Part shown: positions 7,025-55,852 of the stretch, one piece after another | Layout: the number at the start of each line of letters is the position of its first letter | Position numbering within the stretch: the first letter of the stretch is position 1 | NCBI GenBank assembly: GCA_026413945.1 | Contig: JAOAJX010000001.1 | Coordinates: forward strand, 62,001 to 126,000 | DNA: 64,000 bases | DNA from: Candidatus Iainarchaeum sp. | GTDB lineage: Archaea; Iainarchaeota; Iainarchaeia; Iainarchaeales; DTGL01 | Direction: 5' to 3' | Notes under the pieces: generated by a model | Databases searched by the model: none | What the model was told of the DNA's origin: nothing | Seen by the model: only the letters and a program-made list of their open reading frames with translations | Position numbers and translations under genes: made by a program

Positions 7025-7025
7025 G

Positions 7026-29820: not shown

Positions 29821-30753
29821 ATGCCAATAAAGCGCCTTGATCTGAAGCTTGGCTTCAGGTGCAACAACAATTGCCTTAGCTGCCCTCAGGCACATAGGAG
29901 GCATCTTGGTGACTTGCGCCTTGAGGAAATAAAAAAACTTCTTGAAAAAGGCCGTGAGCATGAAGCCAATGAGGTTGTGCTTACAGGCGGAGAGCCAACA
30001 GTAAGGCCTGATATCCTTGAAATAATTGCTTACGCAAAAAAAATTGGCTATGAGTTTATACAGCTTCAGACAAATGCAAGAATGCTCTATTACAAAGAAT
30101 TTTGCGAGAAGCTTGTTGCAGCAGGCATAACTGATTTTGCACCTGCAATCCATGGTCCTAACGCTCAAGTTCACGACTATTTGGTGCAATCTCCAGGAGC
30201 ATTTGAACAAGCAATAAAAGGTGTTAGAAACCTCAAAGAACTGGGCCAATATGTGATAATGAACTCTGTCATAAACAAAATAAACTATGTGCTGCTTCCT
30301 GAAACAGCAAGGCTTTTTGTTGACCTTTGCGTAGACCAATACCAATTTGCATTTATACATTGTGTTGGAAATGCGAAAAAAAATATTGATCTTTTGCTGC
30401 CCAGGAAAAGTGAGGTTAAGCCTTATCTGCACAAAGCGCTTGATATTGGAATAAATGCTGGAATAAAAGTAATGGTTGAGGCATACCCTTATTGCTTTAT
30501 GCAAGGTTATGAAAAGCATTGCTCTGAGCTTTATATGCCAAATGCAGAAATTATGGATGCTGAAGGCATAGTTGAAGATTTTGAAAAGCTTAGGAAAGAG
30601 ACAGGCAAGCTAAAGGGAGAAAATTGCGAAAAATGCCGCTATGACCTTATTTGTGAAGGTCCTTGGAAGGAGTATCCACAAAAATTTGGCTGGAAAGAAT
30701 TTGTGCCTGTTAAAGGCAAAAAGATAATAAGCAAAAAGGAGTTGCTTGGATAA
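29821..30753 (+). CDS. Short radical SAM protein, Hxs-type cluster paralog 1
   Basis: 310 residues. The cluster motif is FRCNNNCLSCPQ near residue 15 (CxxxCxxC), with LTGGEPTVRPD as the SAM-binding GGE motif, LQTNARML, and IHGPNAQVHDYLVQSPGAFEQ. The C-terminal part has PYCFMQGYEKHC and CEKCRYDLICEGPWKEY, a likely auxiliary Fe-S site shared by all short paralogs in this window. It opens the plus-strand operon and overlaps the HxsB-like gene by eight bases. It is probably a peptide-modifying enzyme acting on the HxsA-like protein; the chemistry cannot be read from sequence. Confidence 0.85.
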   Translation: MPIKRLDLKLGFRCNNNCLSCPQAHRRHLGDLRLEEIKKLLEKGREHEANEVVLTGGEPTVRPDILEIIAYAKKIGYEFIQLQTNARMLYYKEFCEKLVAAGITDFAPAIHGPNAQVHDYLVQSPGAFEQAIKGVRNLKELGQYVIMNSVINKINYVLLPETARLFVDLCVDQYQFAFIHCVGNAKKNIDLLLPRKSEVKPYLHKALDIGINAGIKVMVEAYPYCFMQGYEKHCSELYMPNAEIMDAEGIVEDFEKLRKETGKLKGENCEKCRYDLICEGPWKEYPQKFGWKEFVPVKGKKIISKKELLG

Positions 30754-32251
30754 GAGAAATGAGTTAATTGTTTTAAAAAGATTGCTCGCAATTCCTAATA
30801 TGGTTGAGCGCATGAAAGAAAAAAGCATCGACTTTGATTCTTGCTATTTGCTTAATCAATACAACACAAAAAAACTAAGAGATAATGCATATTTGATAAC
30901 AACAGAACATGGCGCATGGGCCTTATTGAACAAAAAACAGTACAATCTGCTAAGGCTACAGCGGCTAAGCAAAGACAGAAAGCTCTTTGATGCGCTTGAG
31001 AAGAAGGGCATAGTGTTAACTGAAAATAATGTACAGAGCATAGTAAAGGCCTATGCTGTGAGAAACTCATTTCTTTTTCAGGGACCGTCATTGCACATAG
31101 TTGTGCCTACGTTGAGATGCAACCAGCGTTGCATATATTGCCATTCAAGAGCAGAGCCAGAAAGCGGCAGGGGCTTTGATATGGACAAAGATACAGCAAA
31201 AGCAGTTGTTGATTTCATCTTCAAGAGCCCTTCAGAGATTCTAATAATAGAGTTTCAGGGCGGCGACTGCCTTCTAAACTTTGAAATAACTGAGTTTATA
31301 ATAGACTATGCAAAAGAGCTTGCAAAAAAACATAAGAAAAAAGTTGGATTTTCAATTGTAACAAACCTCACAAAGATGGATGAAGATATAATAAGAAGCT
31401 TGAAGGAAAGGCACATAATGGGCTTAGCAACCTCCCTCGATGGTCCAAAGTATTTGCATGACAAAAATAGGCGTTATCTCGGTGGCAAAGGCACTTATGA
31501 AGATGTTGTGTATTGGATTAAAAGGATTAAGGAAGAATGGAAATACGATTTCAACCTAAATGCGCTTTGTACAATAACAAGGTACTCTTTACCCTATGGG
31601 AAGGAGATTGTTGATGAGTATTTGCGCCTTGGCTTTGATGGTATTTGGCTCAGGTTTATGAACAATATTGGTTTTGCTGCAGAAGCTTGGGGTAAAATTG
31701 GTTATTCTCCAGAGGAATATCTTGGCTTTTATGAAAATACACTTGATTACATTGTGAGCAAAAACACCAAAGAGAAGCATTTCACTGAGCTTATGGCTTT
31801 GATATTTCTTAAAAAAATACTCGGTGAAAGAGATCCCTATTTTACAGATATCCAAAGCCCTTGTGGAGCAGGAATAGGGCAACTGCTTTACAAATACAAT
31901 GGCGATATACATACGTGCGACGAAGGAAAGCTATTCGAGGAGTTTAAGCTAGGCAATGTTTTTACATCTAAGTATGAGGAAATATTCAAAAATGATACGC
32001 TAACAACAATGATTGATATATCATCAAAAAAGAATTATCTGTGTGATGCATGTATTTGGAGCCCATATTGTGGAATATGTCCGCTGCACACTTATGCAAC
32101 ACAAGGCACAATAGTTTCAAAGCTCGCTTTGGATGAACGATGCAAAATAATGAATGGCCTCATAAGCAGGATCTTCGAGAGGCAGTTGTTCTCAAAAAGG
32201 CACAGGGCTGTTTTCGGGAGATGGGTCGAAAAAGATGTTGTCTTTAAGTAG
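30746..32251 (+). CDS. HxsB-like radical SAM/SPASM maturase
   Basis: 501 residues. The N-terminal 115 residues hold a PqqD/RRE-like domain (YLITTEHGAWALLNKKQYNL) that could bind a leader peptide. Then comes LHIVVPTLRCNQRCIYCHSR (CxxxCxxC), EFQGGDCLLN and a TIM-barrel core. The C-terminal SPASM-type Cys set is CGAGIGQLLYKYNGDIHTCD, then CDACIWSPYCGICPL and ERCK. Layout and the RCNQRCIYC sequence fit HxsB of His-Xaa-Ser systems. The start is TTG with AAAGGAG upstream, inside the previous gene. A prepilin peptidase gene follows after 8 bases. Confidence 0.82.
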   Translation: MDKRNELIVLKRLLAIPNMVERMKEKSIDFDSCYLLNQYNTKKLRDNAYLITTEHGAWALLNKKQYNLLRLQRLSKDRKLFDALEKKGIVLTENNVQSIVKAYAVRNSFLFQGPSLHIVVPTLRCNQRCIYCHSRAEPESGRGFDMDKDTAKAVVDFIFKSPSEILIIEFQGGDCLLNFEITEFIIDYAKELAKKHKKKVGFSIVTNLTKMDEDIIRSLKERHIMGLATSLDGPKYLHDKNRRYLGGKGTYEDVVYWIKRIKEEWKYDFNLNALCTITRYSLPYGKEIVDEYLRLGFDGIWLRFMNNIGFAAEAWGKIGYSPEEYLGFYENTLDYIVSKNTKEKHFTELMALIFLKKILGERDPYFTDIQSPCGAGIGQLLYKYNGDIHTCDEGKLFEEFKLGNVFTSKYEEIFKNDTLTTMIDISSKKNYLCDACIWSPYCGICPLHTYATQGTIVSKLALDERCKIMNGLISRIFERQLFSKRHRAVFGRWVEKDVVFK

Positions 32252-32259
32252 GGGTTTGC

Positions 32260-33330
32260 TTGTTTGAGTTCTTTTTTGTTTTTGCAATGCTGATTTCTTT
32301 TGCTATTGCACTCGAAGATATCCGTCATGGAAAAATACCAAATAAGCTAATAGTTTTACTTTATGCTCTTGGTATTTTTTATCAAGTGTTTTCAGCGACT
32401 GAGTACATGAAAGTAGTTTACACTTTTTTTTATGCACTAGCAATATCTTTTTTCCTTTGGCTTATCGGAATATGGCCTGCTGGCGATGCAAAGCTTTTTT
32501 CTGTTCTATTCTTGCTTTTGCCTCAGGCACTTTACAGCTCGACGACCCTAACTTTTGATTTTATGGTGAATTGCTTCGTGCCGATATTTTTCAGTATGTT
32601 TTTTGTTATAATAGCAAAGAGCCGCTTTTCGGTATTAAAAGATGCGATTAAGTTTACATTACAGCCATACAGAGTAACGATTCTAGCTTTAGCTTTGCTT
32701 GGCTTTGTTTGGTTTATCTCAAAAGGATTAAGCTTTCTCGCTTTTGGGCAAGCAATTTTCAGCGATTATTTTGTAATGTTGCTCTTGCTTTTTTTAACAT
32801 ATGAAGTCCTGAGGCGAATGTTAAGTGCAAAGGTTGAGCTTATTTTATTTTTTCTTGCTGTTCTGAGAGTTTTTCTTGATTATAGAAATGTATACTCGCT
32901 CACTTTCATGCTTAACTTCGGAAAAATGATTGCTGTATTCCTTCTCTTCCGCTTTTTTATAATATACCTGGCCTTTAAGCTTTACACAAAAAGTGTTGCA
33001 ATAAAGAACCTCAAGCCAGGCATGTGTCCTGCGGAAATGATTTTGCAGAAAGGCGATGAATTCGAGAGGATAAGCTTTCTGAATTCAGGCCTTTTGACAT
33101 TTGGCCATGAAAAGAAGGGTGAGCTAATACACAGCATTGACTACCTGTCAGAGGAGGATATAAAAAGGATAAAAAAACTGCGAAAGGAAAATAAGATTCC
33201 TTTCAATGACATGCTGATAAACTTCACGCAGCCATTTGCAGTATTCATTGTTCTCGGTTATGCGCTTACTGTGCTTTTTGGTACAAACTTTGTGCTTTAC
33301 ATTACAAAGACCGTCATGCTTTCCCAATGA
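32260..33330 (+). CDS. Prepilin peptidase, A24 family, copy 2 (within the Hxs-type operon)
   Basis: 356-residue polytopic membrane protein. The catalytic Asp sites are ALEDIRHGKIPNK near residue 22 and PAGDAKLFSVLFLLL near residue 75, where AGD replaces the usual GGGD. Several more helices and a soluble segment follow (IKNLKPGMCPAEMILQKGDE, EEDIKRIKKLRKENKIPFND). The architecture parallels the copy at 6194-7024 but the sequences have diverged strongly. It starts with TTG after AGTAGGGG. Its place between two radical SAM genes suggests it processes a product of this cluster; the pilus operon at 46976-56269 is the alternative client. Confidence 0.82.
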   Translation: MFEFFFVFAMLISFAIALEDIRHGKIPNKLIVLLYALGIFYQVFSATEYMKVVYTFFYALAISFFLWLIGIWPAGDAKLFSVLFLLLPQALYSSTTLTFDFMVNCFVPIFFSMFFVIIAKSRFSVLKDAIKFTLQPYRVTILALALLGFVWFISKGLSFLAFGQAIFSDYFVMLLLLFLTYEVLRRMLSAKVELILFFLAVLRVFLDYRNVYSLTFMLNFGKMIAVFLLFRFFIIYLAFKLYTKSVAIKNLKPGMCPAEMILQKGDEFERISFLNSGLLTFGHEKKGELIHSIDYLSEEDIKRIKKLRKENKIPFNDMLINFTQPFAVFIVLGYALTVLFGTNFVLYITKTVMLSQ

Positions 33331-33380
33331 TTTTTTCCTTCTTAGATAAATTAAAAACAATTATTTGAGGTAATTTAAAT

Positions 33381-34295
33381 ATGCCTGAAACAAAAACTGC
33401 GCTGCTTTTGGGATACAAGTGCAATAACAACTGCAGGTTTTGCTATGCTGCTGATAAGCGTGAACTATATGCAATGAGCACCGAAGAAGCAAAAAAGCAC
33501 TTAAAGGCAGCTGTGGAAAGAGGCTCAAGCTTTGTTGACTTCCTTGGCGGTGAGCCAACTATAAGAAAAGATCTTATTGAGCTAATCTCTCATGCAAAAG
33601 ACCTCGGCTTTAAAACGATAAGCATTACAACAAATGGAAGAATGCTTTCAAATATTGAATATGCTAAAAAGCTTTACAATGCTGGTTTGAATTCAGCGGT
33701 CTTTTCTGTGCATGGGCATAATGCGGAGCTGCACGATTATCTTGTGAATGTTAAGGGCGCTTTTGATCAGCTCGTGAAAGGCATGCAAAATTTTAGGGCA
33801 TTATCAGATGATGTTTACATATGCACTAATACCGTCATTGTAAAGCCGAATGTTTCTTTTTTACCCGATATAGCAGAGCTAAACGCGAAGCTTTTGGCTA
33901 ATGGCATGGAATTTATTTTTCCGCATCCGAGAGGCAACGCATACAAAAATTTTGAAGAAATGGTGCCAAGGTTGGAACAGCTTATAGGCGTTGTTCAGAG
34001 AACAATAGGAGTCTGCACTTCACAAGGCATAAAACACTGCTATTTTAGGTATGTCCCATTTTGCTACATGTACGGCGCAATAAATTTTATAAGCGAGTAT
34101 GCTGCAAAGGAGTCCCTTAAGGAAAATCATATAGGCCCGGAATTTGAGGATCTTGACGTTGAAAAAAACCGCGCAAAGTATGGCCGAATAAAAGGGCCTC
34201 AATGTTTTGGGTGCAAGTACAACAACGTTTGCGAAGGCATCTTCAGAGAATATGCTGAGAAGCGCGGTTTTGAGGAACTTGTGCCAGTACCGTGA
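33381..34295 (+). CDS. Short radical SAM protein, Hxs-type cluster paralog 2
   Basis: 304 residues, paralogous to the protein at 29821-30753. Motifs: GYKCNNNCRFCYA (CxxxCxxC), FLGGEPTIRKD, TTNGRML, VHGHNAELHDYLVNVKGAFDQ. The C-terminal Cys set is PFCYMYGA and CFGCKYNNVCEGIFREY. GAGGTAATTTAA precedes the ATG. It sits between the A24 peptidase and a single-pass membrane protein on the same strand. The predicted substrate is the His-Xaa-Ser protein or a related peptide; the reaction is unknown. Confidence 0.85.
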   Translation: MPETKTALLLGYKCNNNCRFCYAADKRELYAMSTEEAKKHLKAAVERGSSFVDFLGGEPTIRKDLIELISHAKDLGFKTISITTNGRMLSNIEYAKKLYNAGLNSAVFSVHGHNAELHDYLVNVKGAFDQLVKGMQNFRALSDDVYICTNTVIVKPNVSFLPDIAELNAKLLANGMEFIFPHPRGNAYKNFEEMVPRLEQLIGVVQRTIGVCTSQGIKHCYFRYVPFCYMYGAINFISEYAAKESLKENHIGPEFEDLDVEKNRAKYGRIKGPQCFGCKYNNVCEGIFREYAEKRGFEELVPVP

Positions 34296-34308
34296 GCAAG
34301 GTGTTTTA

Positions 34309-34764
34309 GTGGAACTAAAAATATTAGTTAAGGCCTTAAGAAGGAAAGAGTTTGCAATTCCGATAGCTTTCCTTTTGTTCCTTTTGTTTTTTGGAGCAAT
34401 AATGCTTCTGGTTGATACTACAAAAAATGTTAAAAACATTGAAAGAGCAAGGATTTCTGGCTGCGTTTTGGAGTATGGGCCTTGGCAATGTATTGATGAT
34501 AAAATAGCTGTACCTTTTTATAATTCCGGGGTTTTAGACATAACAATGGTAAGACTTAGATTTCCTGTAAGAAATGGCTGGAATGTGTATGAGGCAAGTG
34601 GCATGCTCAGAAAAGGCGAGGCTGGAACATTGCTAACTGAAAGCTGTGCAGATGCGATAATGGAAGGCACAAAAGTTGAGTGGTGTTGCTCAAGCGATTG
34701 CTTTATCAGTGACCTTAAAAACCCAAACCAAAATGTTTTAGTAAAAATAAATTCTTTTGGTTAA
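34309..34764 (+). CDS. Single-pass membrane protein in the Hxs-type operon, unknown
   Basis: 151 residues from a GTG start 13 bases after the radical SAM stop. A basic N-terminus (KALRRKEF) leads into one helix (AIPIAFLLFLLFFGAIMLLV), then an exterior beta domain with paired cysteines (SGCVLEYGPWQCIDD, WCCSSDCFISD). The frame could extend upstream into the radical SAM gene, but the GTG fits the hydrophobic start better. Possibly an export or anchoring partner of the cluster product; no family recognised. Confidence 0.62.
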   Translation: MELKILVKALRRKEFAIPIAFLLFLLFFGAIMLLVDTTKNVKNIERARISGCVLEYGPWQCIDDKIAVPFYNSGVLDITMVRLRFPVRNGWNVYEASGMLRKGEAGTLLTESCADAIMEGTKVEWCCSSDCFISDLKNPNQNVLVKINSFG

Positions 34765-34765
34765 T

Positions 34766-35404
34766 ATGGCAAAAATATTTTTTGGAGATGAACACCTTCC
34801 GGTTTGTGAGACAAATATCGAAGCCATAAGTAAAAACAGCAAAGCGGTATTAAGCTTTACTTTTAGAGAAGTTTTTCAACAAAAAACATTTGCGGAGAAT
34901 GCTAAACTGCTTGAGATTTGCCTAAAAGCAATGAAATATAAGGGAATAAGATTTTTTAGTGTGCCTTTTTGTGTCGCTGAGCCAGAAAAGGTTTCTGTTT
35001 TCAATAGCTTAGCTCTTAAGGTAAAGAGTGGGTTCTACTTTGAAGGTGCATATATGGTTCCTTTAGATAGTTGACCAGGAAAATTACCTGCCTTAAAAGT
35101 ATACGATTGCTGTTTCAGACGCGGTTTATTCGATGTATTAATGGCAATTAATTCTTTTAGTCATTTTAAGGATCCGGCTAAGAGTGTCATTGAAGCTAAG
35201 AGAGTATTGAAAGAAGGCGGCTTATTTATTTTGGTGGAAAATGAAATGGCTGAAAGAGATTTTGGGAGTAGAGATGGCTTTGATTCACATAATAGCCTAA
35301 AAAAGAAGCAGATAAAGGAGTTATTTCTGAAAAATGGGTTCATGTTAAAGACACAAAGAAAGGTTAGGCCTTACTACTTTTTGATGTTTGAGAAGGTTAA
35401 TTAA
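34766..35404 (+). pseudogene. Methyltransferase-like gene interrupted by an in-frame TGA
   Basis: The ATG follows the upstream stop by one base. The frame runs 102 codons to TGA at 35072-35074 and then continues open, in the same frame, to TAA at 35404. The second part encodes FDVLMAINSFSHFKDPAKSV and KRVLKEGGLFILVENEM, the central and post-III motifs of class I SAM methyltransferases. The first part (residues 1-102) shows no glycine-rich motif I. A restart at the ATG at 35141 could give an 87-residue fragment. Either a decaying gene, a sequence error, or two genes; selenocysteine is unlikely. Confidence 0.6.
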
Positions 35405-35414
35405 CAAGCTGAGA

Positions 35415-35436
35415 TGCTTGGGATTTCGCTCAAGCA
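35415..35436. terminator. Weak hairpin between convergent genes
   Basis: TGCTTG and CAAGCA (6 pairs) enclose a 10-base loop between the interrupted methyltransferase and the convergent gene ending at 35450. A shared terminator is possible, but no strong T run follows. Confidence 0.3.
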
Positions 35437-35449
35437 CCTACTTTATAAT

Positions 35450-36391
35450 TTAGCTTAGCAAAATAGCAATTGCGCATTGGCATTGAATGTCTTCTATTTT
35501 TTCGTATTTTTTCAAAATAGCATCTTTTACTTCTTTTTCTTCTTTTTGCTCTAGTAGTGGCTTTGCCTCACAAAGCTTCTTTATAAGCAGATAATCACGA
35601 ACAAAACATAAGTCTTTTGTTTTTTCTTTAATAATTATTTCTCCCATGGTATTGCAAATATTTTGTTCAAAAATGGCAGCCACCTTGCTGTTTTCTTTTC
35701 TGAGTTCTGAAAGGTTTTTGTCAAAAATGTTTAGTGCGGTTGTTGCTTTTGTTTTGAGTTTTCTTAGTTGCTCAGAAGGATCAGTTTTGTCAATTTTTAT
35801 TTCAAGTATTTTGAGTGCAATGTTTTTATCCAAAAAGTTTAAATCTCCGCATTCTTTCTCCGCTGTGACATAGCCGTACAAAGAGTCTAAGTCGTCTTCA
35901 GCGAGTTGTTTCTTTTTAAAATATTCTCTCCAGTAAGTCAGGGCTTTTGAAAACTTTGAGTTATCTAAGATTCTTTGCTTAATTTCTATCCAATTACTAT
36001 CTCTATTAAGCACTCTGATGCTAAAGCAGTATCCACCAAGTACTTTGTTTGGGTCACAAGATTCGGGCACCACACATTTTTTTTCAAACGATGCTTCTAT
36101 TAGCTTTATATGTTCTGGTTTTGTTTCTGCCAACCTTCGTTTAGCTTCAGTATCGCCTGCGAGAAAGGCAAATGTCGATTTCACAACAATGGTGTTGTGT
36201 ATTGCCTGAGGGGTGTTTTCATCAGATAATTTCATAGGTATTTCATCATAGCTGTAAAGGTAAACTTCATAACCTTTTTTTGTTGGATTTATTAGGTGCA
36301 TAATAACAAGTATTAAGGAGATAGCAAAAATTAGCAGCAGTAAAAGCATAACTAAGAACTTCTTTCTGCGATTTAGCAGAATCACGGCCAA
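35450..36391 (-). CDS. Membrane-anchored protein in the Hxs-type operon, unknown
   Basis: 313 residues. An arginine/lysine-rich start (LNRRKKF) leads into one long helix (LVMLLLLLIFAISLILVIM), then a 275-residue exterior domain with helices and eight or so cysteines (KKCVVPESCDPNKVLGGYC, QCQCAIAILLS). It is the last gene of the minus-strand operon, 42 bases after the large radical SAM gene. The start is probably TTG with AAGGTG in front. It could tether or process the mature product outside the cell; no family recognised. Confidence 0.62.
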   Translation of the reverse strand: MAVILLNRRKKFLVMLLLLLIFAISLILVIMHLINPTKKGYEVYLYSYDEIPMKLSDENTPQAIHNTIVVKSTFAFLAGDTEAKRRLAETKPEHIKLIEASFEKKCVVPESCDPNKVLGGYCFSIRVLNRDSNWIEIKQRILDNSKFSKALTYWREYFKKKQLAEDDLDSLYGYVTAEKECGDLNFLDKNIALKILEIKIDKTDPSEQLRKLKTKATTALNIFDKNLSELRKENSKVAAIFEQNICNTMGEIIIKEKTKDLCFVRDYLLIKKLCEAKPLLEQKEEKEVKDAILKKYEKIEDIQCQCAIAILLS

Positions 36392-36433
36392 ACACCTTTC
36401 TTTTGGATGATATTTATATGTCCAGTGCCCTAT

Positions 36434-38287
36434 TTAAACCTTTTTTATTTGGTTTTGCAAAAAGTATTTTTCGTAAAGGGTCTTGCGATCTAAAATATTG
36501 CCAATTTTTGGCCCGGGGCGGTCATTGCAAAACTTTATCTTTCCATCTTGTACAACTTTAAAAAGCTCTAAGCAACCAAAACAGTCCGAAGGGATTCTAA
36601 ATTCGCTGTAGAATTTCTTTTCAGCCTCTTTGCTCATCTCTTGGACAAATATTGGTTTTGTGACTAAAAAAAGCACTCTTGCGGCTTTCAAGTTGTATAG
36701 GAACTCTTTGAAAACAATTGTTTCTCTTGGATTTAATTGTTGTTTGCAAATTGGTGAAAGCAAAACCAAGCCCAATCCTTTTGATCTTTTGTTGAAACTT
36801 ACTATTTCAAAGAATAGCCTGTCAAAATCTTCCTTTTGAGGATCAAATTTAATCAAAAGCACGTCCTTCTTTATTGCAGAGTGGATACTTTGGGAAATGG
36901 TTGCTATGAAGTAATGCCCAAGCAATCTCAAGCCATCTTTGCCATCTTCTAGATAAGGTCTTAGCTTAATTGTTTCTTTATTTGCAAGGTATCTAAAATA
37001 TTCTAAAATCTCCTCTTTTCTATCATCACAATGCATCTTATCTGGAATATAAATTGTTTTGTTTTCTCTCAGGTTTCTTAGCAGACAGCCTCCCCAGCAT
37101 AGCTTAAAATCACATTTTTGGCAAAGTTTAACTTTTTTGTACCAATTTCTTAACTCTTTTAGCTTCTTGTAATCTAAAACAATTTTTTTACTTTTAACGT
37201 CATATCTGCCGAAAATCAAATATGAAGCACCATGATTGAGTATATCTTCTTTATCTCCGAGCATCGCACAGGGAGTTATAAAACCTTCGGGTGTCACCAA
37301 AAAAGTGTTGCATACAGCACACCCGCAAGCAAACTTGTTTCCTAAAGATTTTTGTGCCGGAACAAGACAGCGCAGGTTAACAAGGTCGCACATTTCTTTT
37401 ATGGCAAGCTGCGATCTGATAAGCTTTCTGTAATAATTCATGTGCCTTTTTTTGTTTTTTTTATTTGTAGCTGCTTTACCCATACAACCTACAATTGACA
37501 CAAATATTTTTTCTACACCAAGTGAGTTGAAATACTTTACGGTCTTTTGTTCTTTACCAATATGTGCATATGTCAAAGTTATTTTTATAGTAAAGTCTTG
37601 ATTTTTTGAAACGAGCGCTCTTATATGATTTTCCACTATAATACTACTTTTACCTTCATTCGTGAAAGGTCGCACTTTGTCTTGTATCTCTGGTGGCCCG
37701 TCACAAGATATTTGAAAAGAATCACCAAAATAGTTTTCTTTTAATACAGCCAAATAATTTGAAGGCGAAATGGTACCATTCGTAGAAAGTTTGAATTGTT
37801 TTACGTTAAGCTTCTTTTTTGCATAATTTATTGTTTTTAAAAATAGGTGTTCATTGAGAAGTGGTTCTCCTGAAGTTACGAAGTCAATCAACATAGGCCA
37901 ATTTTGATGCTTGGCCAAAAAATCAGTCGAAGCTTTTATTAATTCAAACGAGGAATCTTTGCCTTTCTTAATACCACCATAACCAACGCAATAACTGCAG
38001 TTCAGGTTGCATTTAGTAGTTATTACAGGAATAAAGTTTTCGAATCTGCTTATTTTTGCAAATGGCTTTTTTGAATTTATGGCAATATATTTTCTTCCAA
38101 ATTTAAGAAAAGCTTCTTCATCCATTAAAAAGAAGTTTGAGGTGTTGCTGCATATAAAGAAAAAAAAGCTTTTTCTTTTGAAGAGCATATGGAGAAAAGG
38201 CTTTCTTTGTATTAGCTCTTTTTTCACTGTCACAAGATTGCTGCTATTAAATTTTTCATTGGAGCCTTCAAAAATCTTTAAAAGCAT
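36434..38287 (-). CDS. Large radical SAM maturase next to the His-Xaa-Ser precursor
   Basis: 617 residues. An N-terminal 85-residue domain precedes the radical SAM core, with TTKCNLNCSYCVG near residue 95, VTSGEPLLNE, LSTNGTI and QISCDGPPEIQDKVRPFTNEG. A SPASM-like set follows: CGCAVCNTFLVTPEGFITPC and LCQKCDFKLCWGGCLLR. A C-terminal 170-residue domain ends in another Cys module (SDCFGCLELFKVVQDGKIKFC, then GNILDRKTLYEKY). It starts 16 bases after the precursor's stop with an AGGTC ribosome site, so precursor and enzyme are co-transcribed. It is the prime candidate for modifying the repeats. Confidence 0.85.
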   Translation of the reverse strand: MLLKIFEGSNEKFNSSNLVTVKKELIQRKPFLHMLFKRKSFFFFICSNTSNFFLMDEEAFLKFGRKYIAINSKKPFAKISRFENFIPVITTKCNLNCSYCVGYGGIKKGKDSSFELIKASTDFLAKHQNWPMLIDFVTSGEPLLNEHLFLKTINYAKKKLNVKQFKLSTNGTISPSNYLAVLKENYFGDSFQISCDGPPEIQDKVRPFTNEGKSSIIVENHIRALVSKNQDFTIKITLTYAHIGKEQKTVKYFNSLGVEKIFVSIVGCMGKAATNKKNKKRHMNYYRKLIRSQLAIKEMCDLVNLRCLVPAQKSLGNKFACGCAVCNTFLVTPEGFITPCAMLGDKEDILNHGASYLIFGRYDVKSKKIVLDYKKLKELRNWYKKVKLCQKCDFKLCWGGCLLRNLRENKTIYIPDKMHCDDRKEEILEYFRYLANKETIKLRPYLEDGKDGLRLLGHYFIATISQSIHSAIKKDVLLIKFDPQKEDFDRLFFEIVSFNKRSKGLGLVLLSPICKQQLNPRETIVFKEFLYNLKAARVLFLVTKPIFVQEMSKEAEKKFYSEFRIPSDCFGCLELFKVVQDGKIKFCNDRPGPKIGNILDRKTLYEKYFLQNQIKKV

Positions 38288-38302
38288 TTTAAAGACCTAA
38301 GC

Positions 38303-38701
38303 TTAGTAGCAGTAAGCTGCATCACAGGCACCGATTCCACTATAATGGCTGCTGTGGCTTCCGTGGCTGCCGTGGCTTCCGTGACTTCCGTGGCTTCCGT
38401 GACTTCCGTGGCTGCTGTGGCTGCTGTGGCTGCTGTGGCTTGCGTGACTTGCATGGCTTGCGTGATGGCCGTGGCTAGCGCTAATATTGCCTGCATTCCA
38501 TCCAACGCTAAAGTAGTTTGTGTGTGTTGCTGCCACTTCAGGCAAAATATTGAGTATTGAAATCGACCCCAAAAAAGCACCAAGGGCAAGCATTTTGTGC
38601 TTTGAAATGCTGCCACGCTCTTCTAGAACAAATGATTTTATAGTTTTTTTTACTTTTGGAAGCAGAGATTCGTTTTCAGATGATTTTTCTTTTTTGGGCA
38701 T
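38303..38701 (-). CDS. HxsA-like His-Xaa-Ser repeat protein (candidate RiPP precursor)
   Basis: 132 residues. Residues 1-36 are charged (MPKKEKSSENESLLPKVKKT), 37-55 form one hydrophobic helix (MLALGAFLGSISILNILPEV), then AATHTNYFSVGWNAGNISASHGH. Residues 80-121 are fourteen uninterrupted His-Xaa-Ser units, grouped HAS x3, HSS x3, HGS x6, HSS, HYS. The tail is GIGACDAAYCY. This is the hallmark of HxsA, the substrate of Hxs radical SAM enzymes in bacteria. The likely leader contains ERGSIS before the helix. It has its own promoter and is followed at 16 bases by the large radical SAM gene. Confidence 0.85.
   Translation of the reverse strand: MPKKEKSSENESLLPKVKKTIKSFVLEERGSISKHKMLALGAFLGSISILNILPEVAATHTNYFSVGWNAGNISASHGHHASHASHASHSSHSSHSSHGSHGSHGSHGSHGSHGSHSSHYSGIGACDAAYCY
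38339..38464 (-). repeat. Tandem 9-base repeats encoding fourteen His-Xaa-Ser units
   Basis: Fourteen 9-base units with near-identical sequence, differing mainly in the middle codon (Ala, Ser or Gly) and in a few synonymous positions. Blocks of identical units suggest growth by slippage or unequal exchange. Confidence 0.9.
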
Positions 38702-38731
38702 CTATTAAATAATAGATATACTTATTTAAAA
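38702..38731 (-). promoter_or_regulatory. Promoter and palindrome of the His-Xaa-Ser precursor gene
   Basis: On the minus strand a TATA-like TTTTAAATA (38723-38731) stands about 25 bases before the ATG, implying a leaderless transcript. Between them lies CTATTA-TT-TAATAG (38702-38715), a perfect 6-base inverted repeat touching the ATG, well placed for a repressor. Confidence 0.5.
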
Positions 38732-38759
38732 TATTTCCTAAAAGTTGAATGGCTGAAAA

Positions 38760-39602
38760 TCATATAATTGGGTTGAATTCTTCTTCGCCAGCAAGGGGTA
38801 TGTAACTTTTCCATATTTTTGGGCATTTTTCCTTAACCTTGCAGATTTCGCACGCTTCAATTAGCGTTAGTTCTGTTTCTTGCTTAGTTATTCCTTCTGC
38901 GAGATGCCAATACTTTTTGTCCATTATACAAAGAGGAAAATGAAACAGCATTACTTCAAAATTTGCCCTTAGTAAAGTTTCTGCTGCCTTCTCTACAAAT
39001 GGCGCTGCTTTGCTATACCTCACAAAAACCTTGCGCCTGTTGATGAACGCATTACCAGTGTATTTTAGGTTGATAAAAACAACCCTTTCAAGTCCTTTGA
39101 AGTTTTTCACAATGAATTCAGCGGTTTTTTTTAGATGCTTATAATTTATCTTCTCCACAAGAATTCTTAACTCAACTTTGAACCCTTTTTCCAGAAGTTT
39201 TTTTATACCATTCACGGTTTCATTCCAGCTTCCCTTGAATTGTGTTATGGAATCATGCACTTCTGGCTTGTGGCTGTACAAAGCTATGCCAAAACGTATT
39301 GGTTCAAGCTTATGCTTGCTTATCTTATCCACAAAGTCTTTACCTGAAAACTTTCGCCCATTGCTGACAACAAATATGAACTTATTAGGGTGTTTCTTTC
39401 TTGCGTATGCTAAGATATCAACGAAATCTTCCCTGAGTGTTGGCTCTCCGCCGGTAACGCCAAAAATCTCGGTTTCCGGAATCTTGTCTATAATCTCAAA
39501 TAATTTTGCTTTGCTTTGCTGCCCCAACCAGCAAGTCATTCTTGTATCAATTATGCAGCTTATGCAATTATTATTGCATTTGAAGGTTAGTGGCCACTCC
39601 AT
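38760..39602 (-). CDS. HxsC-like short radical SAM protein
   Basis: 280 residues. Motifs: TFKCNNNCISCII (CxxxCxxC), VTGGEPTLRED, VSNGRKF, then IALYSHKPEVHDSITQFKGS, followed by the KVELRILVEKINYKHL and VVFINLKYTGNA stretches. The ALYS..HD..T...GS pattern and the ELRILVEK segment match HxsC of His-Xaa-Ser systems better than the other short paralogs here do. C-terminal Cys set: PLCIMDKKYW and CEICKVKEKCPKIWKSY. The start overlaps the upstream radical SAM gene by 16 bases; the precursor gene is 58 bases downstream. Confidence 0.82.
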   Translation of the reverse strand: MEWPLTFKCNNNCISCIIDTRMTCWLGQQSKAKLFEIIDKIPETEIFGVTGGEPTLREDFVDILAYARKKHPNKFIFVVSNGRKFSGKDFVDKISKHKLEPIRFGIALYSHKPEVHDSITQFKGSWNETVNGIKKLLEKGFKVELRILVEKINYKHLKKTAEFIVKNFKGLERVVFINLKYTGNAFINRRKVFVRYSKAAPFVEKAAETLLRANFEVMLFHFPLCIMDKKYWHLAEGITKQETELTLIEACEICKVKEKCPKIWKSYIPLAGEEEFNPII

Positions 39603-40489
39603 TTTAAGTCATCTCCAAGCAATTCTAAGCCTCTAAAGGCAACATACTTCTTGGATATACCAGGGCAATTATTTGCAAAGCGGCAATCTTTACAAATTTT
39701 CAGCTTTTCACAACTGCTTTTTATTTTCGTTTCTAAGTCAACTTTCATATCAAACCAGTACATCTTTGTCTTTAATTGGCCACAAGTAGCGCTGTCCTTG
39801 TTCTTCTTCAATGAGCATGGAGGCATATTCATTACCCAAACTGTAATGCCATGATTTTTTAGTATTGACGCAGCCGAATCCACACTTTCAGAAACCTGTG
39901 CAAACGTAGGTATGAGCCATTTGTTATTAAGCAAGTTACCGTCAATATCCGGGAATATTATGCACATTGCACGAATTTGGTAATTATTGCAGAGGAATTC
40001 TGCTAATTTAGGTAACTCATTGAAATTTATTTTATTTAATACAAAATTTACATCAATGGTAAGGTTTGCTTTTGATGCATTTTCCAGGCCTTTTATTGCT
40101 TTCTCAAATGCGCCTTTAACATTGCAAAGGAAGTCGTGCGTTTCCGGATTTAAGCCATGGATTGAAAGTATTACACCGGTTAGTCCTGCTGCAATCATTT
40201 GATCCAAAAATGCTTTATTTGAAAGCAAAAGGCCGTTTGTTGTAATCCTAACTTCTTTGGCCCCATTTTTTCTTGCAAATGCTATTAGCTCACACAGATC
40301 TTTGCGTATTGTTGGCTCGCCACCAGTAAAGTTAATCTCCTCAGCAAAGTCTTTACCTAACGCTAACATAATTTCCTTCTTTATCTCCTCTGTGCTCTTA
40401 TTCTGGTTCCTATTCCCAACAGAGCAAAAGAGGCAATTGTTGTTGCATGCAAAGCCCAAAACAATTTCAACTTTTCCTAAGTATGTCAT
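39587..40489 (-). CDS. Short radical SAM protein, Hxs-type cluster paralog 3
   Basis: 300 residues. Motifs: GFACNNNCLFCSVG, FTGGEPTIRKD, ITTNGLLL and IHGLNPETHDFLCNVKGAFEK. C-terminal Cys set: PPCSLKKNKDSATCG and CKDCRFANNCPGISKKY. It lies between the DUF483-like gene (15 bases upstream) and the HxsC-like gene, which it overlaps. AGGTG stands ahead of the ATG at 40489. Expected to install a radical-dependent modification on a peptide; substrate inferred from context only. Confidence 0.85.
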   Translation of the reverse strand: MTYLGKVEIVLGFACNNNCLFCSVGNRNQNKSTEEIKKEIMLALGKDFAEEINFTGGEPTIRKDLCELIAFARKNGAKEVRITTNGLLLSNKAFLDQMIAAGLTGVILSIHGLNPETHDFLCNVKGAFEKAIKGLENASKANLTIDVNFVLNKINFNELPKLAEFLCNNYQIRAMCIIFPDIDGNLLNNKWLIPTFAQVSESVDSAASILKNHGITVWVMNMPPCSLKKNKDSATCGQLKTKMYWFDMKVDLETKIKSSCEKLKICKDCRFANNCPGISKKYVAFRGLELLGDDLKWSGH

Positions 40490-40504
40490 CAAAGCACCTG
40501 TGCA

Positions 40505-41389
40505 TCAGCTAAATTGCAGCAACAGACCTTTTTCAATTTCCCCAACAAACTTTTTGCCAGAGTAAACTCTTAAAGAATCTTCTTTTGCAATAATGGAGTT
40601 TCCTTTGGATAAGATACCTTTAAACCCACTGAAGTCAATGGATAATTCACCAATAATTGAAGAGTATCTTATTGAATCACCTTCTTTGTGGCCTTCAAAT
40701 GTGCAAAACTCATGATCATTCCACACGATAATTGGCTTCTTTAAAAAATGTTCTGCGCTCTTGCAGAAAGCGGGTATTTGTTTGCTTAAGATATGTTGCA
40801 TTTTTCTTCCAAATTTTAGGCTTTCCTTACAGTCAAAAGAACATGGTTGGTGTGGTATGAAAAAAAGGTTATAAGTGCTTATCCTAATAAAATTTTCATC
40901 ATTGCCAATCAAAGCATAGTCGCCTTTGCTAGAGAAATTGTATGTTGAGTTAAGAAGGAAGTTAAGCTTTTTGCTGTTTTGGAAGATCCTTTCAATAAGG
41001 TTGTAGTCATACTTACCGCCCTGTTTTGAACAGGGGTTTTTTTCAGACAAGGTTTTAATGAAAAAGGAAGTGCAGCAAGGCGGATAGCCAAAAAGGTCAC
41101 CAACATCTATTCTATTGGCATTAGCTTCTGCTCTGGCTGCTTTTTCAATATCTTGCCTCGATTTTGAAATATATGCCAGAAGCATGCTTTCTTTTGTTTC
41201 GTAAATTTTAATCCTCTTTACTTCGCATTCTAAGCCCCAGCCCTTTGCGAGTTTTTTTACGCTTCCCTTGTCATTTTCTGATATTCCTGTTCGCGAAACC
41301 GGCTTTAGGTCATAAACTACTCCAAAAAAATCCACTGGTGAAAAGAACCCAAGCCAAGTTGGTTTTTCAAATAAAATTTTGCTACGCAT
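40505..41389 (-). CDS. DUF483-like protein in the Hxs-type operon
   Basis: 294 residues. The conserved motifs are DVGDLFGYPPCCTSFFIKT (near residue 105) and RISTYNLFFIPHQPCSFDCKESLKFG (key residues YNLFF, PC and C-x-x-C in SFDCKES), the pattern of archaeal DUF483 proteins. Function unknown; Cys placement would allow a metal site. The ATG at 41389 follows the upstream radical SAM stop directly, with AGGAG in front. Its fixed place between two radical SAM genes makes it a likely cluster component. Confidence 0.72.
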   Translation of the reverse strand: MRSKILFEKPTWLGFFSPVDFFGVVYDLKPVSRTGISENDKGSVKKLAKGWGLECEVKRIKIYETKESMLLAYISKSRQDIEKAARAEANANRIDVGDLFGYPPCCTSFFIKTLSEKNPCSKQGGKYDYNLIERIFQNSKKLNFLLNSTYNFSSKGDYALIGNDENFIRISTYNLFFIPHQPCSFDCKESLKFGRKMQHILSKQIPAFCKSAEHFLKKPIIVWNDHEFCTFEGHKEGDSIRYSSIIGELSIDFSGFKGILSKGNSIIAKEDSLRVYSGKKFVGEIEKGLLLQFS

Positions 41390-41390
41390 A

Positions 41391-42353
41391 TCAATACTCC
41401 TGCAGCTTAAATTCTTCTGTGGTAATTTGTTTTCCTTCAATAGGCTTGAATTCTGAAAAGCCCCTTACACGAGTATATTCCTTGAAAGGGCCAACGCAGA
41501 GTAAAAAATATTTGCATTTTTTGCAATTTGCGCCTTTGCTTCTGTACTTCTGCCTGTTTTTTTGTATGTCTGCCCTGAACTTTGGCCCAATCAAAATTGT
41601 GTTTGTGACAGTGAGCTCAGACATAATGTTTGTGTAGCTTGGCAATATGCAAGGATACATATTATGCAAAAAAGGCTTTCCACCCTCTTTGAGTAGAATA
41701 TCACACGCCTCTTTGATGTAAGAAGCAGCTTCATCTATCCTTGGAACCATTCGCTCGAAATCCTGTTTAGCGAAGCCGTCTGGTATTGCAAAATTTAAGT
41801 GATAGCTTTTGGTGTTCTTCTTGAACTTGAGAAGGAAAGCAGCCATTTCAGGCAGTTTTTCATAATTGTAGGTGTTTATTACCGTGCTTGTGCGCTTTTC
41901 AATGCCAAGATCTTCAAGATTTTTCAAGCCAGCAACTTTGTCATCGAAAGAACCTTTTGTTTGCGTAAGGAAATCCTCTAATTTTGCATTTGGCGCGTGT
42001 ATTGATACGAGTACTCGGTTTACACCTAAATCAAAAATTTTCTTCGCATAGTTACGGTACTTAAGCATGCAGCCATTTGTCTGGATCTCAATGACTTCAA
42101 AACCAAGCTTTTTTGCATATCTTATTGCCTCAAACAAATCTTTCCTTATAGTTGGCTCGCCGCCGGAAAAAGATATTATGTCTGCGCCGCATCTCTTGGC
42201 AAACTCCAAATCCTTTTTTATTTCCAACCAGCTTTTTGCGCGGCCATCTGAAACAAGCTTGTGGCCTACCGAGCAAAAAATGCAGCGCTGATTACATTGC
42301 CAATTAACCAGAATTTCAACCTTTTTAAGCCCAATTTCAGCTCTTTCATTCAT
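41391..42353 (-). CDS. Short radical SAM protein, Hxs-type cluster paralog 4
   Basis: 320 residues. Motifs: VNWQCNQRCIFCSVG, SFSGGEPTIRKD, QTNGCML and IHAPNAKLEDFLTQTKGSFDD. C-terminal Cys set: YPCILPSYTNIMSEL and CKKCKYFLLCVGPFKEY. Similar in layout to the three other short paralogs and to the HxsC-like protein. It follows the two HxsD-like genes and precedes the DUF483-like gene. I chose the ATG at 42353; a TTG two codons earlier is possible. Confidence 0.85.
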   Translation of the reverse strand: MNERAEIGLKKVEILVNWQCNQRCIFCSVGHKLVSDGRAKSWLEIKKDLEFAKRCGADIISFSGGEPTIRKDLFEAIRYAKKLGFEVIEIQTNGCMLKYRNYAKKIFDLGVNRVLVSIHAPNAKLEDFLTQTKGSFDDKVAGLKNLEDLGIEKRTSTVINTYNYEKLPEMAAFLLKFKKNTKSYHLNFAIPDGFAKQDFERMVPRIDEAASYIKEACDILLKEGGKPFLHNMYPCILPSYTNIMSELTVTNTILIGPKFRADIQKNRQKYRSKGANCKKCKYFLLCVGPFKEYTRVRGFSEFKPIEGKQITTEEFKLQEY

Positions 42354-42371
42354 TTTCAATACCGCATAAAA

Positions 42372-42608
42372 TCAAGGTGAAGCGCCCTTTATTAGGCTCA
42401 AGACATAATTGCAGAACTCAAGGGTTAACTTTTCAGCAGAAACAGCCTCTGTTTTCATTGTAATGTGAAAATATCTGCCGGACTCTTTTTTTGTTATTTT
42501 TGCGCCTTTAACCTCTTTAAGCGCCTTATTAACTATTTTTCTTGGGTAAAAGGCCTTTGAAAGGTTTAATGTTGCTTTTTTTCCATCTTCTTTTACTTCC
42601 AATAACAT
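42372..42608 (-). CDS. HxsD-like small protein, copy 2
   Basis: 78 residues: VKEDGKKATLNLSKAFYPRK, then IVNKALKEVKGAKIT, a short strand pair, and SAEKLTLEFCNYVLSLIKG. The pattern of a short strand, a YP motif, a helix, strands and a final helix with a FCNYVL motif parallels the larger HxsD-like protein encoded just upstream. These small proteins may act as peptide-recognition partners for the radical SAM enzymes. AGGGTG precedes the ATG at 42608; an in-frame GTG is three codons earlier. Confidence 0.65.
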   Translation of the reverse strand: MLLEVKEDGKKATLNLSKAFYPRKIVNKALKEVKGAKITKKESGRYFHITMKTEAVSAEKLTLEFCNYVLSLIKGASP

Positions 42609-42641
42609 TTTAAGCACCCTGCATGGGCAAATGCTAAACCT

Positions 42642-43124
42642 TTAGCCCTTTGGCTTCTTAAGCCCTTTTGCCTTTTCAGGAGTCCACGGCTTAGCTATGC
42701 CTTCTGGGTCATCTATGAACAAATCATCAGTTGGCATTTTTATGTCGGCTGCTTTTTCTTTAATATTTTCCTCCTCAGCGCATTGGGGGCAGTAGTTTTC
42801 AGTTAGGTTTGTTGCTAAGGCACGCTTTATTATTGCCTCTCTAATCGGCTGGTTTCTTGCTGCTTGTATCGCATAAGCAGCATAGTTTATCAATTCATCA
42901 TGGAGTTTCAAAGCAAGGCTTTCAAGCTTCTTTCTGCTAAGCGCCTCTTCTTTCGGCTTTATCAATATTTTAATCTCTTTTTGCGGGTCGCCATCAAGTA
43001 TAAAATATGCCCTATCAAGAAGAACGTAGCAGGCAGCATAAACAACTTCAAGCGGGAAAACTTTTGGGTTTATGCTTAATATTGCTTCGTTTTTATCTGG
43101 AAATAGTTCAATGCCATGTACCAT
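42642..43124 (-). CDS. HxsD-like protein, copy 1
   Basis: 160 residues. The first 100 match HxsD in outline: AILSINPKVFPLEVVYAACYV, LLDRAYFILDGDPQKEIKIL, LALKLHDELINYAAY and RNQPIREAIIKRAL, comparable to the EL-NDY...LRE signature for which HxsD is known. A Cys pair (NYCPQCAEE) and an acidic, Lys/Pro-rich tail follow. First gene of the minus-strand operon. The start at 43124 has a textbook GGTGATTTTATG. Role inferred: accessory or leader-binding protein of the maturation complex. Confidence 0.75.
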   Translation of the reverse strand: MVHGIELFPDKNEAILSINPKVFPLEVVYAACYVLLDRAYFILDGDPQKEIKILIKPKEEALSRKKLESLALKLHDELINYAAYAIQAARNQPIREAIIKRALATNLTENYCPQCAEEENIKEKAADIKMPTDDLFIDDPEGIAKPWTPEKAKGLKKPKG

Positions 43125-43233
43125 AAAATCACCTGTGGAATAAACATTTATCAACAGAAAGTTTAATTAATAACAATAATTAAATATATAAAAACGTTTA
43201 TATTTTGCTTGCAAAATAAAAATAGTGAAAAAT
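43125..43233. promoter_or_regulatory. Divergent promoters of the Hxs-type operon and the giant surface protein
   Basis: Minus strand: TATATATTTA (43181-43190) with a ribosome site GGTGAT next to the HxsD-like start, giving a leader of about 30 bases. Plus strand: TTTATATTTT (43197-43206) about 30 bases before the ATG at 43234. The two TATA elements are 6 bases apart. Confidence 0.5.
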
Positions 43234-46200
43234 ATGAAATTGCGAAGGGCTTATTTATTAGGAATTATTTCAGCTGTCATGTTGGTCTGCTTACCAAACT
43301 TTGCTAATTCACAAACCTGTTATGGTGGACTTTCTGGAAGCAATTTGCAAGATTGTTTTGGCTCTTCTGATTATCCTTGTTACTATTGTGATGTTAGTGA
43401 TATGGACTACGAAATAAGGGCTCCTAATGGCGTTACAACAACGGGCTGGCGCGATATGAGTTATTCTACGCAGGTTGGAAGTTGTAGTGTAAGCTGTATA
43501 CAAAAGACTTGGACTGCAAGCTATCTTTGGTGTCCGCAGGAAGGCACTTATTCAATAAGAACAAGAGCTTATTCTCAAAGCGGAAGTGGTTATGCTTGGG
43601 AAACGAGTGATTGGAACACAAATGCATATACAGTAAACTATGATTATGAACAACTTTGGTGTACCTGTAAAGGTGGCACATGGGTTTCTGGTGCAACATA
43701 TTGTGGTAGCCTTGGATGCCAAGGCGGAAGATGCTGTGGAGACGATGGAGCAAATGATAATTTTTGTGTAGCTGGGGGCGGAAGTTGTGTTGCTGGAACC
43801 CATAGGTCTAATCATTGTTCGGATGGGGTAAAAAATTGTGATGAGCAGGGCATTGATTGCGGCGGAGCTGACTGTGCTTCTTGCGTGAGTGTAATTGTAA
43901 ACGCACCAAATGGCAACCAATACATAAGAGGTACATATTATATTGATTTTAATGTTTATGACCCAAACAATGGGGAACTGCATGCGAAGATTGCATATTC
44001 TACATCCCCGGGCTTGTTTTCTAACATAATCGTTTCCGACCTTAACCTGAATAATGACCCAAACATCAGTGCTTTAACCTGTGACAAAACTAATTGGAGC
44101 ACAACAACGAGATGCATATATTCCTGGAATACCACAACCGCAAATGATGGAAATTATTATATTGATATTAACTTATGGAGCGTTTCTGGCGGCTTTTCAA
44201 TTGACTCAAGCAATGCTTCCTTTGCAATAGACAATACTGCGCCTACTACAAATGCGACTGCAAAGAAGAGTGATGACAGCAACTATGTGTTTGGAGAATG
44301 GAGCAAACTAAATGTTACTGTGACTTTGCAATGCATAGATACGACCTCTGGCTGTAAGGCGACATACTACTGCCTTGGCTCTGGCTGTACTCCGAATACA
44401 ACATATTCATCAACAATAACAATATCCTCAGAAGGAACTACTTACTTAAGATTCCGTTCGGTTGATAATGCTGATAATAATGAAAGTGTTCAGGAGAAAA
44501 TAGTAAAGGTTGACAATACTGCGCCTACTACAACAGACAATGCTCCTGTAAACTGGCAAACCACTGACTTTAATATAACACTCACTTGTAATGACGGCTT
44601 AGGCATTGGCTGCTCTGAAACATATTATAGGATAAATAGCGGCGCCTGGCAGCTATATTCTGGAAGCATAAGTATAACACAAGATGGCAATCATCGTGTG
44701 GATTATTACAGCAAAGATCTACTAAATAATACAGAAGGCATGAAAACATGCTATGCGCCATTAGACAAAAGTCCGCCAACCATAGATGTTAATTCTCCGC
44801 TAAACAATGAAGTTATAGAATCAACCATTTACGTAAGATTTAGGGCTAACAAAGGTGTTGGATCACCTTTAAGCTTTGGCTCAATAATTGTTCTTTTAGA
44901 TGGCTCACAAAGCGATGATTTTAATAGGTCAGTGCATTGTATAGAAGCTAGCGGCGATTATATTTGTGCCTATTATGAATATGTTAATACTGCAAAGGAT
45001 TATAATCTATCAATAAGAGTAAGTGATCAAGTTGGTTGGACGGTACAGCGGGACATTAATTTCTTTTATTTGGGCCTTACAACCTTCAATATAGAAGGAT
45101 ACACAATAGAGCCAAGCACTGCAATGAAAGGTGTTATTTATTCAATGGTAGATGTTGGCTTGAGCTCATTTGGTGGCTCTTCTTGTGCTGGAACAAAATA
45201 TATTGAGACTGGCTTTCCCGGAATATTCAGAAATATCCCGCCGGTTCTTGTTTATGCTGGCTATGAGGAAGGGTATTTTAGTGGTGATCTAAACATTAGA
45301 TTCTATGCTGCTGACTATGAAATGGGTGAATTGCATACCAAGATGGCATATTCTATTGCAAAGGGATCGTTCCAAAATAGCATAGTTAATGACCTTAACT
45401 TAAACAATTATCAAAATATTCCTCAGCTGAACTGCGCAAGTGCTGACTGGCGTTATGCGAGGTTATGCACATATGCTTGGGATACCACGCAAGCAAATGA
45501 TGGAAATTATTACCTTGACTTAAACCTCTGGGATGAACATGGCGCAAGCAGCAGCTATTCTACAACAAAGACTCTTTGCATAGATAACACAGCACCAGAT
45601 ATAAACTTAATCAAGCCAAAGCCGAACGAATTAATTGAAGAACCTTGGTTTATGTTTAAAATATCCGAAAATGGTTGCGCTCCATTGGCTTTGGGCGGAA
45701 TATCGGTGTTATTGAATGGTGAAGCGACCAGTTTTGAGTATACTAGGGATTGCAACAAAAGCGGCTCAGAATATACTTGTGGTTTCAATATACTTGGGCT
45801 TATTGAGAGTGACTATAATTTTAGCATAATTGTAACTGATCTGGCAAAAAACGGGAGGCAGGCCGATGTTAACTTCCGCTTTATTCCAAAGATTTCCGTA
45901 AGTGCTATACAGCCCAGCGGAACTTTAGAAACTGGCGACATAACAATATCATTCAATGTTTATAACACAGCCCTCAGTGAGTTGCATGCGAAGATATATT
46001 ACAGCTCAATACATGCTGGAAAACTTGGCTTTGAAAACGCTATTGAAACAGACTTAAACCTTAATAATCATGCACAGATTGAAAATCTAAACTGCACTTC
46101 AAATTCTTGGTGGCCCCCTGTGCAATGCACATACTACTGGGACGCGAGAAACGTAGAAGATGGAAACTACTACATAGACATAAATATTTGGACGAATGGT

Positions 46201-47836: not shown

Positions 47837-47840
47837 TAAA

Positions 47841-50916: not shown

Positions 50917-51241
50917 TTTTATCACCGTGTCCAAGATCTTTAAATTCACCGATTGAATTTTTGAAGCGTTCGTTATATTTTGTCTTAAGCTTGTCCATAC
51001 TCTCTGATAGTGTTATAATTCGGTTTATTATGTCCTTTCTAAGGTCAGATATTACTGCATCAATGATATCTGCTTCATGCAATATTCGAGGATCTTCTCT
51101 TTTGCTCATTGCGGATTCGATAAGCTCAGACTCGATCTCTTTTCGCCTGTTATCTGCCTTTCTTAGCTCACTTATCGAGCGCAATATGTTCTCACTCTGC
51201 AAGATGAGATCGCTTATGATATCTATGAATTCTTCAGACAT
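50909..51241 (-). CDS. Small coiled-coil protein of the pilus operon
   Basis: 110 residues, nearly all helical and charged (LILQSENILRSISELRKADN, LRKDIINRIITLSESMDKLK). No signal or membrane segment. The end overlaps the ATPase start by eight bases and the start overlaps the pseudopilin by eight bases, so translation is coupled. Likely a cytoplasmic accessory factor of the ATPase; no family recognised. Confidence 0.65.
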   Translation of the reverse strand: MSEEFIDIISDLILQSENILRSISELRKADNRRKEIESELIESAMSKREDPRILHEADIIDAVISDLRKDIINRIITLSESMDKLKTKYNERFKNSIGEFKDLGHGDKNV

Positions 51242-54868: not shown

Positions 54869-54919
54869 AGTTCTCAATAGAATACGCTCTCTTTGTTTAA
54901 AAGCATTATCGGAAATTGA

Positions 54920-55312: not shown

Positions 55313-55345
55313 AAAAATGCCTCTTTCTTGTTTATTTTTGTCGTT

Positions 55346-55786: not shown

Positions 55787-55852
55787 GTGAGTGTTTAGCA
55801 TAGGTAGCATAGGAACACATAAAAAATAAAAAAATAATAAATTTAAGTATAT

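Follow-up and report, generated by a model that had tools for sequence, protein, structure and literature searches.

The DNA analyzed here, referred to as the window, is a stretch of 64,000 nucleotides from Candidatus Iainarchaeum sp. (contig JAOAJX010000001.1, positions 62,001 to 126,000; host genome of 0.95 Mb, 92% complete), and between 29.8 and 43.2 kb it carries two gene groups on opposite strands that make up an archaeal variant of the His-Xaa-Ser (Hxs) peptide maturation system. This variant is genuine and conserved, and what sets it apart is a prepilin-type peptidase of its own, from family A24, together with a matching leader on the repeat protein HxsA. Judging from the genes, we consider it somewhat more likely than not that HxsA is modified in the cytosol, cut after a glycine by this peptidase, and held in the membrane or displayed at the surface. 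An earlier note on this DNA had proposed an expanded archaeal Hxs-type cluster, keeping the core set and adding four short radical S-adenosylmethionine (SAM) paralogs, with seven radical SAM proteins in all around a His-Xaa-Ser (HxS) repeat protein; hidden Markov model (HMM) searches, synteny in relatives and a phylogenetic tree bear out this description.

Seven open reading frames (ORFs) with an intact CxxxCxxC motif all match PF04055 above its cut-off, and none falls into an unrelated metabolic family. The radical SAM/SPASM maturase HxsB (30746-32251, plus strand; SPASM domain PF13186) passes the equivalog cut-off of TIGR03978 (429 vs. 370 bits, NCBIfam HMM search). HxsC (38760-39602, minus strand) scores 204 bits against a TIGR03977 cut-off of 268, and in the tree it falls with bacterial HxsC in a clade set apart with support 100/100. 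The two small HxsD-like proteins that the earlier note had named are also present: HxsD_rel (42372-42617, minus strand) reaches 43.3 bits with NF038315 (cut-off 41), and HxsD (42642-43154, minus strand) 40.2 bits with TIGR03976 (cut-off 50), a match that spans nearly the whole model. HxsA (38303-38701, minus strand; 6 kb from hxsB) scores 47 bits with the HxsA4 model, whose cut-off is 55, and carries 14 HxS triplets in one unbroken run; shuffling its composition predicts 3.9 HxS, and none of 5000 shuffles gave more than 11. HxsC, HxsD and HxsA thus stay under their own cut-offs, yet these families are their top matches. The NCBIfam models HxsA3, HxsA4, HxsC4 and HxsD_rel are the best or near-best ones for HxsA, the extra paralogs and the small HxsD-like protein, with only HxsD_rel over its cut-off; the HxsA3 model spans the leader.

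We examined 56 HxsB loci in three archaeal groups, namely the window's own (87 genomes), Fermentimicrarchaeum (Microcaldota) and a Woesearchaeota group, in which HxsB exceeds the cut-off in 32 of 371 sampled genomes. Synteny with the repeat protein is conserved in these relatives, the commonest gene order being A24 - HxsD - HxsD_rel - HxsB - HxsA; HxsD is present at 51 of the 56 loci, HxsD_rel at 48 and an A24 gene at 45, 40 of these on the same strand and within 2 kb of HxsB. The A24 protein of the window (32260-33330, plus strand) matches PF01478 with 36.7 bits (cut-off 26.5) and also Arc_PepC (PF06819) above cut-off, it keeps both catalytic Asp residues (EDIRHGKIPN, PAGDAKLF), and a sequence search returned no homolog in the PDB. 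The Hxs A24 proteins of the window's group and Woesearchaeota (29 rows) group together with support 100/99, and the two A24 lineages that ordinary genomes of the order possess lie outside this clade. Of 22 genomes sampled, the Hxs carriers (four) each contain three A24 genes and the others one or two, except for one non-Hxs genome with a third, sub-threshold match; in the window an ordinary second A24 prepilin peptidase lies at 6194-7114, and the third is on the same contig outside the window. This evidence makes the A24 protein a conserved, dedicated component of the archaeal Hxs system and probably the HxsA leader peptidase; the earlier note had counted it only among the export genes, and in our view it is the central element of the system.

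HxsA is the candidate substrate. In 42 archaeal HxsAs we found a common leader, mostly of 18-30 aa, with the consensus PKIKKKISSFLxxExG/KISK (the slash marks the presumed cut); in the window it occupies about residues 7-30, ends in LEERG/SISKH, and is followed by a hydrophobic stretch, the 14 HxS tiles ending in HYSG and a Cys-containing tail. The presumed -1 residue is Gly in 40 sequences and Ala in 2, with Glu at -3 and Lys at +4 in 41 of 42 each. Of 20 genomes that have HxsB, 18 also have the leader, against 0 of 67 that lack HxsB (Fisher test, 1e-16). Over whole loci, leader and A24 co-occur (38/8/3/7, p=0.002), as an earlier test limited to 5 kb had also indicated (p=0.03). A hydrophilic leader ending in Gly (or Ala) with a hydrophobic tract after it is a trait of class III signal peptides, in which a hydrophilic leader of 6-26 aa has Gly as its last residue and precedes a hydrophobic tract, and which are cut by a dedicated prepilin peptidase (PMC4471445); in Flp prepilins the motif is G/XXXXEY (PMC4322843). 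Neither the leader nor the Hxs A24 was found on the plasmids searched. Bacterial hxs operons are common on plasmids (L061-L065, L194), with 520 records matching HxsB, 318 of them from Klebsiella.

Based on these features, we propose that HxsA would be made with a leader of about 20-30 residues and that, in the cytosol, the HxS tiles would be modified by HxsB, HxsC and the further radical SAM paralogs, each with one putative auxiliary cluster; HxsD and HxsD_rel, as a pair, would probably act as adaptors for the substrate or for partner proteins. The hydrophobic stretch past the leader would then take HxsA into the membrane with its repeats outside, and A24 would cut the leader after the conserved Gly on the cytosolic side, in the manner of prepilin peptidases, leaving a membrane-held or surface-displayed modified repeat protein. 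What the sequences show is the gene content, the synteny, the conserved leader and the distinct A24 clade; we infer the order of these steps, the cleavage and the action of A24 in it, the location and chemistry of the product, and the convergence of all the cluster's enzymes on one precursor.

Several observations weigh against this proposal. Glu at +5 is found in only 9 of the 42 leaders and the hydrophobic tract begins at about +7 instead of +1, so that these class III traits are lacking; the +1 residue is polar and -2/-3 are acidic, unlike in classical prepilins; and the leader matches no pilin family in Pfam. At 5 of the 56 loci the A24 gene is placed otherwise, and 11 have none, some of these lying at contig ends. 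The Fisher tests, like the correlation given below, are uncorrected for relatedness, and a profile search places HxsB in no characterised cyclophane-forming family, its top matches being HxsB and PapB. Moreover, many HxsAs have AxA-like sites past the hydrophobic stretch (e.g., PEVAA/THT, KEVNA/QT), which would also fit an ordinary signal peptidase. HxsA might then be exported by a Sec signal peptide cut at such a site by signal peptidase I, with the leader as a docking site for the maturases and A24 serving other proteins such as linked pilins; bacterial HxsAs do have plain signal peptides, and a pilus operon is linked to the cluster in the window's family. We regard this as rather unlikely, given that the last leader residue is Gly or Ala in 42 of 42 HxsAs, that the Hxs A24 is an additional copy with its own clade and co-occurs with the leader, and that A24 accompanies the hxs genes also in groups without an adjacent pilus operon.

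The repeats themselves suggest what the enzymes may do. Across loci, HxS tiles form gapless runs of up to 27 units, in which H and S are fixed and x is free, mostly Ser, Gly or Ala, in bacteria and archaea alike; the run often ends in an aromatic residue (HYS or HxS-Y/W in archaea, HYS in several bacteria). The tiles have the same i/i+2 spacing as the triceptide unit, and by this analogy our preferred guess for the chemistry is that each tile carries a cross-link from His(i) to Ser(i+2); taken on its own, this guess is reasonable but less likely than not. The constancy of the tiles argues against the idea that the repeat binds a metal (Cu, Zn or Ni) through unmodified or lightly modified His while the radical SAM enzymes mainly act elsewhere, for instance on the tail with its Cys or on the HxHH motif that precedes the repeats. 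What speaks for that idea is the Cys in the HxsA tails of the window's family and the leader kept in HxsAs with few or no HxS (L115, L117, L129); against it, loci with more HxS tend to have more Hxs radical SAM genes (rho 0.70, n=41, relatedness not accounted for), and we think this reading rather unlikely. In a genome of the same class, a different HxS-rich precursor beside HxsB (L052:5337-6176) has 35 HxS with a PHSSS-type period of 5, and neither A24 nor the common leader.

The four extra short radical SAM proteins, with HxsC4 or HxsC as top match, are those of groups rS1 (29821-30753, plus strand; NF038332 152 bits, under cut-off; motifs CNNNCLSC and a C-terminal C...CxxCxxxxxC), rS3 (33381-34295, plus strand), C2 (39587-40492, minus strand; ortholog in L036) and C3 (41391-42359, minus strand; orthologs in L036, L038 and L042). 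In short paralogs of archaeal and bacterial loci, the three cluster-binding Cys are present in 66 of 66, and four C-terminal Cys, the same four as in HxsC, in 98-100%; from their pattern these four look like the ligands of one auxiliary cluster. In the tree, the four window paralogs fall into four different ortholog groups, each lineage also present in other genera, and rS1 is also found in Fermentimicrarchaeum and Woesearchaeota; the expansion is therefore old, and recent tandem duplication is ruled out by the separate lineages. The seventh enzyme, of 617 aa (36434-38287, minus strand), has Cys residues in a SPASM-like arrangement and is extended at its C-terminus by a part that bears another C..C...C motif; relatives of 613-651 aa occur at four other loci. 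The earlier note considered seven radical SAM enzymes exceptional; archaeal loci hold from one to about 12, and seven is not the maximum, because a same-genus genome has about 12 on one 32 kb contig (L037:1-20000 and L038:1-12687). That cluster also holds a methyltransferase, a CAAX-type protease, a glycosyltransferase, a PMT-type mannosyltransferase, a sugar dehydratase, a class V aminotransferase and an acetyltransferase. The last five would suit a role of the extra enzymes on other substrates, in glycan, lipid or cofactor tailoring, with only HxsB and HxsC acting on HxsA, as presumed in bacteria. We hold this to be doubtful, if slightly less so than metal binding or ordinary export, as the extra enzymes match HxsC4 or HxsC best and share the four C-terminal Cys of HxsC.

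Regarding the small proteins, HxsD_rel is homologous to HxsD (hhalign 98.5%). The AlphaFold2 model of HxsD (mean pLDDT 84) has the order b-b-a-b-b-a, which does not fit a classical RiPP (ribosomally synthesized and post-translationally modified peptide) recognition element of the PqqD-like kind, in which three helices come after a three-stranded sheet. No confident PDB match for HxsD emerged from profile and fold searches, the weak ones being dimerising adaptor folds of the Rpb11/Pcc1/DCoH type, and our guess is that HxsD and HxsD_rel form a heterodimeric adaptor. A sequence search found no PDB homolog of HxsC. The DUF483-like protein (40505-41440, minus strand; GYPxCC and CxxxC motifs) was assigned in the earlier note to a family that it does match, albeit weakly (PF04467, 18.5 bits, cut-off 25); its Cys residues are conserved in six aligned sequences, and its low-confidence model (pLDDT 65) gave no fold match.

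The remaining genes of the cluster include the two single-pass membrane proteins of the earlier note, which hydropathy supports. One (34207-34764, plus strand; one hydrophobic helix, start more likely near 34309) has homologs adjoining or near rS3 at six related loci, and the other (35450-36391, minus strand), with a hydrophobic N-terminal helix, has homologs at three (L036, L038, L181). The earlier note did not list a methyltransferase pseudogene (34757-35404, plus strand) that retains both ends of a 315 aa protein, with about 116 middle residues missing and an in-frame TAG; blastp finds it intact in the same-genus relative (L037:10726-11673), where it matches PF08241. Just upstream of the cluster, 27205-28383 encodes a protein with a membrane anchor, in which thioredoxin-like domains are repeated and CxxC motifs occur.

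Although the features lie where the earlier note placed the cluster, at 29821-43124, the conserved neighbourhood goes on. In the window's family the cluster adjoins a large secreted surface protein with an Ig-like domain (43225-46941, plus strand; PF13750), divergent from hxsD; it stands beside hxsD in L036, L038 and L042 and, in L043, not far from it. Next comes a type IV pilus operon (46976-54877, minus strand; two TadC-like proteins, a TadA-like ATPase and pilin-like proteins), whose order, taken over 46976-56269, is kept in seven genomes of the family and which adjoins the surface protein wherever the contig reaches; the same order stands beside this protein in L180, L186, L188, L189 and L190. 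The operon is also present in two same-genus genomes without detected HxsB, both incomplete, so that a specific tie to Hxs is not supported; it is linked to the cluster but probably no part of the system. In another family of the order (L046, L047, L050, L051, L053), the A24-HxsD-HxsD_rel-HxsB-HxsA operon is preceded by the gene of a surface protein that measures about 2200 aa; also encoded nearby is a protein of about 670 aa, in L050 with CarboxypepD_reg repeats and an NHL propeller.

A leader that is conserved, short and well defined, for which both a cut site and a peptidase of the system's own can be predicted, makes the Hxs modification and the fate of HxsA directly testable. Among the papers available to us, we found none that joins a prepilin peptidase to RiPP leader removal. 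If true, the proposal would connect RiPP maturation with the route by which type IV pilins are processed. Its fullest form, a RiPP-type pathway with a prepilin-type intramembrane aspartyl protease for the leader and a ladder of His-Ser cross-links displayed on the membrane or a pilus, in several small-genome archaeal lineages, is less likely than not. A single cluster in these small-genome archaea can hold as many as about 12 radical SAM genes, which amounts to a heavy investment in Hxs.

Three known systems invite comparison. Triceptides, RiPPs with three-residue cyclophanes, resemble Hxs in the use of a SPASM radical SAM maturase and in a precursor motif that places an aromatic residue at i and its partner at i+2 (HxS, period 3), and their known i/i+2 links include His-to-Ala, His-to-Arg and Phe-to-Ser (PMC11002830). 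They differ in that HxsB lies outside the characterised cyclophane-forming families and that the HxsA product is a predicted one. Type IV prepilins with a dedicated A24 peptidase (TadV-Flp, EppA) resemble archaeal HxsA in the Gly-ended hydrophilic leader, the hydrophobic stretch and the adjacent A24 with both catalytic Asp, whereas HxsA has no general Glu at +5, a late hydrophobic start and no pilin domain. With the bacterial Hxs systems (HxsA/B/C/D) the archaeal one shares the maturase HxsB, an HxsC that is an ortholog by the tree, an HxsD that scores below its cut-off, and the gapless HxS tiles. Ten bacterial loci had neither A24 nor the archaeal HxsA leader, and the bacterial HxsAs examined carry plain signal peptides in place of that distinct leader. 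The cluster thus belongs to the known Hxs kind, because HxsB passes its cut-off, the top short paralog groups with bacterial HxsC and HxsD_rel is above cut-off, and to the bacterial set the archaeal form adds A24, HxsD_rel, four short radical SAM proteins, the 617 aa enzyme, the DUF483-like protein and membrane proteins.

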